From Streptomyces sp. NRRL F-2664 (GTDB taxonomy: Bacteria > Actinomycetota > Actinomycetes > Streptomycetales > Streptomycetaceae), in assembly GCF_000719345.1 (NCBI RefSeq), contig NZ_JOFX01000002.1, positions 372,001 to 436,000 on the forward strand: a DNA stretch of 64,000 nucleotides, read 5' to 3'. How positions within the stretch are numbered: position 1 is the stretch's first letter; every line of letters starts with the position of its first letter. Both the position numbers and the translations under genes were made by a program. The notes under the pieces were generated by a model. It did no database searches. It had not been told where the DNA came from and worked only from the letters and a program-made list of their open reading frames with translations. This document shows positions 41,595 to 45,298 of the stretch, in pieces.

Positions 41595-41668
41595 AAGGGG
41601 CGGTAGCTCAGCCGGTTAGAGCAGCGGACTCATAATCCGTCGGCCGTGGGTTCGAGTCCCACCCGCCC
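41595..41668 (+). tRNA. tRNA with CAT anticodon (elongator Met or Ile2)
   Basis: 74 bases. Acceptor GGGGCGG with CCGCCCC and discriminator A, D-arm GCTC...GAGC, anticodon stem GCGGA/TCCGT with loop CTCATAA, T-arm GTGGG-TTCGAGT-CCCAC. The G1-C72 pair excludes initiator Met. Whether C34 is modified to lysidine (Ile) or stays Met cannot be told from DNA alone. Its 3' end directly borders an integrase remnant. Confidence 0.92.
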
Positions 41669-41673
41669 CACCG

Positions 41674-41707
41674 CAAGCCGCAGGTGCAGAAACGTTCGCA
41701 CCTGCGG
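41674..41707. terminator. Hairpin after the CAT-anticodon tRNA
   Basis: 12-bp arms AGCCGCAGGTGC (41674-41685) and GCACCTGCGGCT (41696-41707) with a 10-base loop; the downstream bases include GCGTTTTCC. The same two arms recur at 44062-44093 on the far side of the atypical region. Confidence 0.75.
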
Positions 41708-41732
41708 CTCCGGCGTTTTCCGGGGCTATCGC

Positions 41733-41864
41733 GCCGTCGGCGCGCACGAGGGACGCAGCCTTCCCGGCCGCGTCGCGCCCGACTCCACCCAGCAGGCGGG
41801 AGCACAGGTCTGTGGTGATCGTCACCGCGGAGTGCCCGTGGCGCTTCGGCACGTCGGCCGCCCA
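41733..41864 (-). pseudogene. C-terminal remnant of a phage/plasmid-type tyrosine integrase
   Basis: Minus-strand reading gives HGHSAVTITTDLCSRLLGG followed by VGRDAAGKAASLV, which aligns with the end of tyrosine recombinases (typically LGHSSVTITLDxYxHLLPG and onward). The GHS box is kept, the catalytic Tyr position is Cys, and the Arg-bearing upstream parts are missing, so it is dead. Integrases of actinobacterial integrative elements sit with their 3' end against the tRNA used as attachment site, exactly the place and orientation found here (65 bases from the tRNA end). Confidence 0.7.
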
Positions 41865-42550
41865 GGTGGGGTCCTGGACGGTGGTTGGCAGCGCCTGGCG
41901 GCAGTGCGGCGGCACAGACAGCCGAGCAGGCGTTGACCAGCAGCGGCAGGACGTCGGTAGCGACGGTGAGTGAGATCCACCGCTAGTGAAGTTCCTGCCC
42001 CTCCACCGGACCGTCGCAGACACTGCATGTGCTGATGGCTGTCGTGCCCCATTTCTTGGGGTCCAGCGCAGCGAGTGGCTGCCAGGAGCGATGTCACCCG
42101 TACTCCGGAGTCGGGGGAAGGGAGGGCGCAGCCTGAAGTTGCCGAACAGCGAGCGGGTGCTGACCGTGCTTCTCACCAGCTTTGAGCAGCGGGTGAGGCC
42201 GGCGTCAGGCCCGTTGACTCAGGCCATCGGTTCGGAAGCGGGGTGGGATCGGGGCGGGCGGCATCCATACGGTCACGACAGAAAACTGGCAGGGCGATCC
42301 CACCTGCGGCTCCGGCCTTTTCGGCCGAGGGGGTCGGGATCCGGTCGGCGGGGGCGGTCCGCCCGTCCGGTCCGGGGGATGTCCGAGGAGAGGTTCCGGG
42401 TGCTGACGTGTCGTCAGTGCAGTGAGGGTCACCGCCCGGGGAGGGGGCGAGCAGGAGACGGCGATGATCCCGACCGCCCTTCGCGGTCGGTGCTCCCTTG
42501 GTACGCTCGAACGGCCGCATGGGGGTACGGAGCCGGCGATGGAGTCCTGA
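41865..42550. other. Non-coding stretch of the decayed element, with repeats
   Basis: No intact gene. Composition is less biased than in the core genes around it. The 16-base string CACCTGCGGCTCCGGC at 42301-42316 is an exact copy of 41697-41712 (the right arm of the tRNA hairpin plus four bases), both followed by n-TTTTC. A hairpin with arms CCGACCGC (42470-42477) and GCGGTCGG (42483-42490) lies 61 bases before the BTAD-macro gene. GGAG at 42541-42544 is its likely ribosome site. Confidence 0.55.
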
Positions 42551-43929
42551 TTGACGGACGTTTACGTGAGCGTGCTCGGGGCCACCACGCTCGAACGGGG
42601 AGGCGCCCGCATCCGGCTCACCCCCCTCACGGCCAAACTGCTGTTACGCCTGGTCGCGGCGGAGGGCGAGGCCGTCGCCTCCGGGGAGCTGTACGCGGAC
42701 CTCTGGGGCAGGCCGGAGCGGGGCCGGATCACCCGGGCCCACCGGACCGAGGTGCAAAAGCGCGTCCTTCAGCTGCGCCGGGCGCTGGAGCCGGCCCCCG
42801 GCGGCCCGGACGAGCCCGTGCTGCGGACCGAGAGCTCCTGACCTGCGGCGGCCAGGAGTCGGCCTACCGGCTGGTGCTCGGCCCGGACCGGCTCGACGCC
42901 CTGCAGTTCACCGAACTCTTCCACCGGGCCGCCCACACCGGCTCGGCCACGGCGACGATGCTCCTCAACCGGGCGCTCGGGCTGTGGCGGGGACGCCCGC
43001 TGGGCGAGGTGGCCGACGCGGAGTTCGCCCGGCCCCTCGTGCGGCGGCTGGCGGGGATGTACGAAGCGGCCTGCGCCGAATTGATCCGGACCCACACCCG
43101 GTGGGACCGGCCCGAGCTCGCCCTGCCCGTCGCGGAGCGGCTGGTGGCGCAGCGGCCCGACGACGAGGCGGCGCTTGCGACGCTCCGGGGCCTGTGGGCG
43201 CAGCTGCGCGAACGCGACGGCGCCGAGCTGCTGCGCCAGGAGTTCCCCCGGCTGCGGACCACGGTCGTCGTCAAGAGCGGCGACCTCTTCGAGGAGACCG
43301 ACGCGAGCCTGGTCGCCGGCTTCGGGGACACCTTCGACACGGCCGTCGAGGACGGCCTCGACATCAGCCGGGGCAGCGTGCAGGGACAACTGCTGCGCCG
43401 GGTCTTCGGCGGCGACCGGGCGTTGCTCGACCGGGAACTCCGCAAGGGGCTGCGATCGGTGCAGCCGGTCGGGCGGGAGAGCGCCCGGGACAAACCGAGG
43501 GGCAAACGCCTGCGCTACCCGATCGGGACGGTGGTCCCGGTGCCGCTGGCCGAGCCCGGCCGCAGGGTGTTCGCGGTCGCCCACGGCAGACGGGGGCAGG
43601 ACCTGATCGCCCGGTCGAGCTCGGACGCCCTGCGGGTCGCCCTGGACCGGCTGTGGGAGTCCGTCTCCGTCCACGGCCTGCTCAGACCGGTCGCGCTCCC
43701 TCTGGTGGGGTCCGGGCCGGCGGGGGTCACCGCTCTCCCGGGCCACGAGTTGATCGCCCTGATCGCGGACACCTTCCTGCGTGCCTGCCGGGACCGGCCG
43801 GTCACTCCGGAACTACGGGTCGTCGTACGGCCGGAGGAGCTGCGCGGGATCGGCCTCCCCGACGTCGCACGCTACTTCCAGGGACTCGACGGCGACGGGC
43901 TCCGCTCGCAGGAGGCGGCACCGCGATGA
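42551..43929 (+). pseudogene. BTAD transcription-regulator domain fused to a macro-like domain, frameshifted
   Basis: TTG start at 42551 with GGAG six bases upstream. Frame 1 (42551-42841) encodes a SARP-type winged helix (LTPLTAKLLLRLVAAEGEAV, RAHRTEVQKRVLQLRRAL) and stops at 42839. The sequence goes on in another frame from about 42832 (LLTCGGQESAYRLVLGPDRL) through a BTAD helical-repeat domain to TGA 43927. Removing one AG of GAGAG (42830-42834) restores a 458-codon frame. From LRTTVVVKSGDLFEETDA (about 43252) a macro-like DUF6430-type domain follows: GDTFDTAVEDG, SVQGQLLRRVFGGDRALLDREL, DKPRGKRLRYPIGTV, LVGSGPAG. No ATPase domain, unlike SARP/STAND regulators. Could be a real 2-bp duplication, an assembly error or recoding. 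Confidence 0.75.
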
Positions 43930-44059
43930 TCCTCGACCAGCAGTCCGATCCCGGGTGACCCTGCGCCGCCACCACATCGCGCTCCTGCTGTCCCGTCATC
44001 GCCGTGCATCGTCGCGGCACCGGCTTCCCGTTGTCTCGTTCCCCGCCCCCGGCGGCCTT

Positions 44060-44095
44060 GCAGCCGCAGGTGCGGGCGGCGGCACCTGCGGCTGC
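44060..44095. terminator. Hairpin at the right edge of the accessory region
   Basis: 14-bp arms GCAGCCGCAGGTGC (44060-44073) and GCACCTGCGGCTGC (44082-44095), 8-base loop. The inner 12 bases of each arm are identical to those of the hairpin behind the tRNA (41674-41707). It separates the BTAD-macro gene from the convergent ligase gene and could end both transcripts. Confidence 0.75.
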
Positions 44096-44140
44096 GGCGT
44101 ACCCGGGTGCCGTCGGGGCGCCGGCCGGGTCGCGGGTGGG

Positions 44141-45298
44141 TCAGAAGTCCTCCGTTTCGTCCACCAGGTGGCGCAGGACGTCCGTCAGGTCCTGGCGGCG
44201 GGCGTAGGCCGCGCGTTGGCGGTGGGCGCCCGAGCCGTCGCGCAGGAGGGCGGCCAGGGTCTTGGCCGCGTGGTCCAGGTCGCCGGAGGCGGCCAGTTCC
44301 GGTGCGACATGGTCGAGCAGGGCCTCCGCGAGGTCGGCCGCCGGCAGCTCCGTGCCGGTGTACGGGTCGAGGCCGAAGCCCTCCAGGCCGTCGTGGGCCG
44401 CCCGCCAGCGCGCCAGGCGCAGTACGTCGTCCCGTACGGCCGGCTCCGGGATCCGCTCGGCGGACTCGCGCAGCGCCGTGGCGACCAGTGCGCGGGCCAG
44501 TTCGGCCTGGAGGACCGCGCAGTCCACGCCCGGGGACATGTCCGGCGCCCGGAACTCCAGCGTCGGCCAGTGGCCGGAGGGGCGGAGGTCCCAGTAGACC
44601 ATCTTGGTGTCCAGGGCCGCCCCGGAGCCGAGCAGGGTCTGCACGGAGCGCCGGAAGTGGGCCGTGGACGTGAAGTGCGGGGGCGGGCCCGCCGAGGGCC
44701 AGCCCGACCAGGCCATCGCCCGCCAGCTGGAGTGGCCGGTGTCACGGCCGCCCCAGAAAGGCGAGTTCGCGGCCAGCGCGATCAGCGTGGGCAGCCATGG
44801 TCTGATCCGGTTGGACACCGCCACCGCCGCGTCCACGTCGAGCGTGCCGATGTGGACGTGGCGGCCGCAGCTGACCAGGGTGTCGGTGAGCGCGCCGAAG
44901 CGGCGGTGCTGCTCGCGCTGGCGCGGCAGGTCGTCCGTCAGGTGCAGCGGCCCCTCCAGTGCGACGACCGGAGAGGGAGCGGCCAGCAGCCGGCAGCCGT
45001 GGGCGCGGGCGGCCCGTCCGAGCGTGCGCCGCAGCGCGACGAGTTCGGCGCGCAGCGAGGCCGCCGAGTCGGCGACCGGGGTGGATATCTCCACCTGGTA
45101 GCGGGTGCCTTCGGGGTGCATCTCGCCCGGCAGGCCGGCGGCCGTCGCCAGGACCAGCGGGGCGGCGGGGACCACCCGGAGGGTGCGGGCGTCGACGAGC
45201 AGGAACTCCTCCTCGACGCCGACGGTGAGGGGCACGGTGGGGCGCACCGTGTTCTGCGTCGTGCCGGTGCTCGCGGTGCTGTTGCCAGGTTCGATCAC
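44141..45298 (-). CDS. Carboxylate-amine ligase, YbdK type (GCS2 family)
   Basis: 385 residues, GTG start with GGGAGG upstream. Glutamate-cysteine ligase type 2 fold: TVGVEEEFLLVD at residue 24, MHPEGTRYQVEISTP near 60, SCGRHVHIG near 142, HFTSTAHFRRSVQTLLGSGA near 205 and TLEFRAPDMSPG near 245. YbdK-like enzymes ligate glutamate with an amino compound with ATP; cysteine is a weak substrate for E. coli YbdK. Actinobacteria often carry several paralogues of unknown acceptor. Divergent from the MFS gene with 217 bases between, which include the palindrome TTACCGGTAA at 45395-45404. Confidence 0.9.
   Translation of the reverse strand: MIEPGNSTASTGTTQNTVRPTVPLTVGVEEEFLLVDARTLRVVPAAPLVLATAAGLPGEMHPEGTRYQVEISTPVADSAASLRAELVALRRTLGRAARAHGCRLLAAPSPVVALEGPLHLTDDLPRQREQHRRFGALTDTLVSCGRHVHIGTLDVDAAVAVSNRIRPWLPTLIALAANSPFWGGRDTGHSSWRAMAWSGWPSAGPPPHFTSTAHFRRSVQTLLGSGAALDTKMVYWDLRPSGHWPTLEFRAPDMSPGVDCAVLQAELARALVATALRESAERIPEPAVRDDVLRLARWRAAHDGLEGFGLDPYTGTELPAADLAEALLDHVAPELAASGDLDHAAKTLAALLRDGSGAHRQRAAYARRQDLTDVLRHLVDETEDF

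Follow-up and report, generated by a model that had tools for sequence, protein, structure and literature searches.

The 64,000-nucleotide stretch analysed here (the window), from the 8.0 Mb draft genome of Streptomyces sp. NRRL F-2664 (672 contigs), carries at 42551..43929 a frame-split gene for a winged helix and a BTAD domain joined to a macro domain of the kind found in the Thoeris protein ThsA. We call this combination BTAD-macro. We favour, with moderate confidence, a reading in which the window copy is the decaying orphan of a signal-gated transcription factor of TIR-based, Thoeris-like loci, and in which intact systems would pass a TIR-made signal through the macro domain to transcription. 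Four parts of it are observed directly: the domain build, the predicted fold of an intact homologue, the near-constant TIR neighbour in relatives and the loss of TIR in the window.

Domain architecture of the split gene

A frame change near 42840 splits the gene into two open pieces, both on the forward strand. The N-terminal piece (42551..42841, 96 residues, TTG start) is the winged helix, whose match to Trans_reg_C (PF00486, E-value 7.6e-6) scores 26.3 bits against a cut-off of 26.2; the homologue P0003 begins at the equivalent residue. The C-terminal piece (P0002; 42838..43929, 363 residues, in the other frame) matches BTAD over residues 20-116 (42895..43185, PF03704, E 7.3e-8) and ThsA_Macro over residues 143-331 (43264..43830, PF20016, E 2.4e-44). 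It also matches the PADLOC ThsA macro model PDLC00415 (E 3e-51) and was placed with the Thoeris ThsA macro models. The profiles thus bear out an earlier reading made from the sequence alone (the sequence-only reading), which had proposed a winged helix, a BTAD domain and a macro-like DUF6430-type domain for this interval; the two peptide strings it took for macro domain both lie in the macro part of the C-terminal piece. DUF6430 is the older name of PF20016, in agreement with the source labels of the homologues.

The NB-ARC/STAND ATPase was also rightly reported as missing after BTAD, as no family of that kind matched either window piece or the two intact relatives scanned. The earlier figure of 458 residues presupposes a repair of the frame, and our analysis kept both pieces as they stand. 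A 647-residue open frame at 41986-43929 was rejected as the gene, codon scores and homologues placing the start at 42551. A programmed frameshift seems unlikely, because homologues run in one frame.

Intact homologues and predicted fold

One-frame homologues are common: at E <= 0.001 there are 225, of which the best 120 span 350-509 residues; 116 of these 120 combine PF20016 with BTAD and/or Trans_reg_C, and 4 have PF20016 alone. The nearest among the homologues listed, P0003 from Streptomyces sp. NBC_00853, has 459 residues and is 90% identical to the window protein. Winged helix followed by BTAD is the order both in the window, across its two pieces, and in intact relatives, as judged by profiles and, for a relative, by a fold match.

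In the predicted fold of an intact homologue the C-terminal half is a macro domain whose closest structures are the ThsA macros, and the DNA-binding half matches AfsR in an initiation complex. The structure prediction suggested by the sequence-only reading therefore gave a macro fold, for the intact homologue, and the non-macro fold that it had named as evidence against itself did not appear. The ThsA likeness also bears on a protective role for the macro half as an enzyme or sponge, in which it would hydrolyse or soak up ADP-ribose (on DNA, on protein or as free signal) and the DNA-binding half would do no more than target it. Many macro domains do hydrolyse ADP-ribosyl bonds, as excerpts of PMC11204291 state for the MacroD type, but no deacetylase or glycohydrolase activity was observed there for EcThsA. 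We regard this idea as very improbable.

Carriers are mainly Streptomyces chromosomes and their presence is patchy (36/391 genomes of the order). At E <= 1e-70 only the window's own genome matched among 396 genomes drawn across the phylum; the names among the best 120 of the 225 homologues include further actinobacterial orders.

A TIR gene beside intact copies

Neighbourhoods were compared in 13 named loci and 40 further genome stretches, which gave 48 distinct loci once five duplicates were dropped (L081, L088, L094, L095 and L104, equal to L001, L002, L005, L006 and L008). Neighbours were called with profiles built from the first loci and with a home-made codon-based gene caller; the caller missed the macro genes with membrane helices (TM-macro) of L009 and L013, both of which turned up when open frames were searched with profiles. 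In 47 of the 48 loci BTAD-macro has a PF10137-type TIR gene no more than 3.8 kb away (median gap 1.0 kb). The exception, L002, is cut off by the end of its contig shortly after the TM-macro gene. The search for intact homologues and their neighbours that the sequence-only reading had suggested thus found one-frame relatives with a TIR gene adjoining, and the outcome it had feared, homologues that are all housekeeping genes without island context, did not materialise.

This neighbourhood is a new observation. No description of a BTAD-macro regulator was found in the open-licence PubMed Central (PMC) papers searched, and none of the open-licence matches listed joins BTAD or SARP with Thoeris, anti-phage or TIR domain.

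Genome-wide counts agree with the locus comparison. PF10137 occurs in 23 of 199 Streptomyces genomes (27 matches) and BTAD-macro in 15, including the window's split copy and a partial copy of G118. Fourteen of the 15 have PF10137, against 9 of the 184 genomes without BTAD-macro (Fisher p 1e-14). In those 14 it adjoins BTAD-macro by coordinates; the sole exception among the 15 is the window genome. Besides the own genome, 37 of 44 known carriers were scanned (G183, G020, G111, G125, G594, G595 and G601 were left out; ten of the 37 are also among the 199), and all 37 have PF10137, 36 with one copy and G807 with two. Every one of these genomes has a copy next to BTAD-macro, the largest domain-to-domain distance being about 5.3 kb (G718).

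Three layouts were seen. Layout A consists of a ~200-residue membrane protein, a ~525-residue membrane protein, the TIR gene, a divergent TM-macro ThsA-like gene and BTAD-macro. All five genes are present in 35 loci, and TIR with TM-macro in 37; over all distinct loci the TM-macro gene is found in 38 of 48. The TM-macro of L003 matches PADLOC ThsA1 at E 8e-77. Layout B (L001, L077, L078, L079, L082 and L108) joins BTAD-macro to a CATRA-TIR gene, with CHAT in 6/6 loci and CATASP in 5/6, giving a layout in which TIR and caspase-like components have a regulator of their own. In the example L001:9185-15877, which includes the CHAT protease, the partner carries CATRA-N, CATRA-C and TIR, alongside CATASP and CHAT. 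Layout C (L073, L080, L090 and L101) has TIR and the ~525-residue protein without TM-macro. Two of its members look damaged: the BTAD-macro of L080 is called as two genes and the TIR of L101 looks broken.

The genes flanking the BTAD-macro block vary from clade to clade, so the block occupies several chromosomal sites; within several clades the flanks are common to many strains. Such shared flanks, together with the concentration of carriers on Streptomyces chromosomes and the lack of any viral contig found carrying BTAD-macro, would suit a settled Streptomyces circuit for stress or development, using TIR-made nucleotides and not involving phages. The patchy presence, the decay in the window strain and partners of ThsA, CAP12/Pycsar-TIR, CATRA and CHAT type all speak against such a circuit, which we think unlikely.

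A proposed route from TIR signal to transcription

The domain build and neighbours suggest that intact BTAD-macro works inside an immune-type signalling system. Since 47 of 48 loci pair a ThsA-type macro half with a TIR gene, the natural reading is that a signal derived from nicotinamide adenine dinucleotide (NAD) is coupled to transcription. A trigger would activate the TIR enzyme, which would convert NAD+ into an ADP-ribose-type nucleotide, which could be ADP-ribose (ADPR) itself or an adenine dinucleotide, for example His-ADPR. The macro half would bind this nucleotide, which would probably draw subunits together, by analogy with ThsA, and the SARP-type winged helix and BTAD half would then raise transcription of its own locus and perhaps that of genes elsewhere. 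Most loci also encode the divergent TM-macro protein, which would respond to the same signal, so that the regulator would form an inducible arm and TM-macro a killing one; for the window's subclade a CATRA-TIR protein with CHAT protease would be the partner. The ligand class, the DNA target, activation as the sign of control and an anti-phage or immune role are what we infer for BTAD-macro.

Excerpts of PMC11204291 describe Thoeris with TM-macro ThsA from E. coli CFT073, P. corrugata and B. amyloliquefaciens, report that ThsA binds ADPR and IAD and that ligand drives its self-association, name His-ADPR in discussion as the signal of another Thoeris system, and present the signal made by TIR as the trigger of killing proteins. 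If BTAD-macro reads the TIR signal, that signal would also reprogram gene expression, and cells could prepare rather than only die; BTAD-macro would supply a ready-made module for converting ADP-ribose-type messengers into promoter activity.

BTAD-macro resembles these Thoeris systems in its macro half, which is of the same Pfam family and has ThsA as its closest known fold, and in its adjoining TIR and, mostly, TM-macro genes. It differs in having a SARP-type DNA-binding half instead of membrane helices. Among SARP/BTAD regulators, a STAND ATPase (AfsR) or an FHA domain (EmbR) occupies the place that the ThsA-type macro domain has in BTAD-macro. Work-alikes in which a nucleotide-sensing domain is joined to a DNA-binding domain are NrtR and the CARF-HTH regulators of type III CRISPR (Csa3); their sensor and DNA-binding folds are different, and we claim no homology. 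CATRA ternary conflict systems are named in PMC8195603 and PMC12657218, and their components recur in L001; the open-licence papers searched, some as excerpts, yielded no mention of BTAD or SARP with CATRA.

The sign of control could be the opposite, with BTAD-macro a repressor or brake that silences dangerous TIR and TM-macro genes until a rise in nucleotide releases it. The divergent layout, with the regulator beside TM-macro, suits either sign, and L073 and L090 have lost TM-macro and retained regulator and TIR. The fold match of the DNA-binding half is to AfsR in an initiation complex, however, and AfsR, like other SARP-type BTAD proteins, is a known activator; a brake therefore strikes us as improbable, at about the level of the stress or development circuit.

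The nucleotide pocket

We return to the favoured reading, activation by a TIR-made nucleotide. The EcThsA nucleotide contacts in excerpts of PMC11204291 served as reference positions, 6 of 94 macro domains being left out after failing a motif filter. In the 45 rows labelled BTAD-macro, which include two over-long open frames of TM-macro genes (L009 and L013), D83 is kept in 45, D100 in 45, S175 in 43 and G218 in 44; Gln stands for N114 in 45 and Arg for H259 in 43. The partner TM-macros share both replacements (Gln114 35/35, Arg259 35/35). Six Streptomyces genomes (L029-L034) have a ThsA-type macro gene and no BTAD-macro; their TM-macros also have Gln114 but keep His259 (6/6). BTAD-macro and partner TM-macro are sister clades with a joint support of 0.989. 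The pocket and the sister clades fit one ligand with two outputs, and would equally fit plain common descent. Identity is 82% in the pocket and 46% over the whole macro domain, figures without a control for general conservation. Position 217 agrees within loci in 27/33, a count with no shuffle comparison of its own.

Several points limit the case for a TIR-made ligand driving transcription in these loci. N114, T220, H259 and K262 of the EcThsA pocket are replaced in the BTAD-macro family, and the ligand may therefore differ from that of EcThsA. Positions 217 and 220 together match within loci in 4/33 cases, against 2.8 in shuffles (highest 6), which gives no support. Among PADLOC models, PDC-S35 was hit by the TIRs of L001 and L003, whereas none of the ThsB models was (E <= 0.01). 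A search for SARP-type heptamer direct repeats in 49 related upstream regions gave 5.53 for the 11-bp period against 5.21 (standard deviation 0.10), with the 10-bp period raised too. Related genomes and loci are not independent events, and neither are the counts drawn from them. The putative CATRA-TIR partner of the window's subclade, with its CHAT protease, is known from L001.

A common motif in membrane protein and TIR

A broader proposal, which we hold tentatively and at somewhat less than even odds, is that Streptomyces TIR immunity has an inducible arm. BTAD-macro, a second-messenger-gated transcription factor whose sister is the killing protein's sensor, would read the same TIR-made ADP-ribose-type signal and raise the immune locus and perhaps many genes, in an interferon-like manner; in the commonest layout the trigger would pass from membrane protein to TIR through a common short amyloid-like motif.

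In layouts A and C a short Gly/Asn-rich motif occurs both at the C-terminus of the ~525-residue membrane protein and at the N-terminus of the TIR next to it, the proteins otherwise differing (L003:6304-8615 and other loci). The test covered 37 of the 40 loci with both proteins, three being left out where the TIR anchor was not found. Local alignment of the motif scored 70-129 in 37/37 pairs, against a 99th percentile of 48.6 and a maximum of 60 for letter shuffles. Between loci the median was 43 and the highest score 133, and a locus's own TIR ranked first in 12/37; the motif varies by clade in both proteins. Bacterial amyloid signalling sequences work in pairs on collocated genes, according to excerpts of PMC12261475, and the motif resembles them, which makes it a candidate member of a BASS family. 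The ~525-residue protein itself gave no Pfam family above cut-off and no PDB match at E <= 0.001 (model pLDDT 71).

State of the window copy

The window copy groups with P0003 (0.998), then with P0004-P0006 and the CATRA-type L001 (0.993), then with P0007, P0015 and the CATRA-type L082 (0.981), in a midpoint-rooted tree in which the CATRA-type loci are not one clade. The CATRA-TIR gene of L001 starts with MILDQQ and overlaps the BTAD-macro end. The start of such a gene also overlaps the BTAD-macro stop in the window (43926..43943, forward strand), with 17/18 bases as in L001, and similarity ends there, after the sixth codon. Single-sequence models found no CATRA, CATASP or CHAT in the window. 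The window genome as a whole has no PF10137 TIR gene, no other ThsA_Macro (PF20016) at E <= 0.001 and no TM-macro ThsA, the window protein having its DNA-binding half where ThsA has membrane helices. As the partner is reduced to 18 bases and the genome has neither PF10137 nor another ThsA_Macro, the window copy is probably a decaying orphan.

The position of EcThsA S175 is Gly in the window copy, and two loop residues next to S217-G218, conserved at >= 95%, are altered. With no PF10137 genome-wide, a split frame and this Gly, the window strain retains no functional NADase-based system of this kind. The coupling of an NAD-derived signal to transcription that the sequence-only reading proposed for this gene therefore draws its support from the relatives, with their ThsA-type macro and TIR neighbours, and does not carry over to the window.

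The frame change could instead be a sequencing or assembly error in a draft of many contigs, the regulator being intact and kept as an orphan with another signal source. A promoter-like element of extended -10 shape is retained upstream (TTGGTACGCT, 42498..42507, forward strand), the same or a similar element preceding BTAD-macro in 42/49 regions by a pattern fixed after viewing them, and the window departs in 3/86 columns conserved at >= 95%, a number that intact relatives also reach (mean 1.2, highest 9). However, its departures sit in pocket loops (S346G, L390P and R392G in P0003 numbering), its branch is longer than that of P0003, the TIR and partner genes are gone or truncated, and broken BTAD-macro copies do exist, because L080 also looks split. 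We consider an error of this kind fairly unlikely, though less so than a brake or a settled circuit.

Surroundings of the locus

A mobile-element setting, also suggested by the sequence-only reading, fared weakly. Two peptide patterns gave 42 matches in viral contigs, none of them a BTAD-macro relative by tblastn, and the plasmid matches were 4 records only, each to the macro half alone at 33-39% identity. In its favour is the spot itself. A tRNA-Met lies upstream of the locus (41597..41672, forward strand), followed by a hairpin (41676..41709) whose arms recur in a second copy on the opposite side (44062..44093); the gene on the other flank is presumably glutamate-cysteine-ligase-like, to judge by its sequence. 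Between tRNA-Met and that gene (41597-44141) the window strain and L118 have different genes. Those of L118 are bounded by a copy of the tRNA 3' end, where ARAGORN found no whole tRNA, and by a copy of the same hairpin. The tRNA-Met spot thus looks variable between two strains, as integration spots can look.
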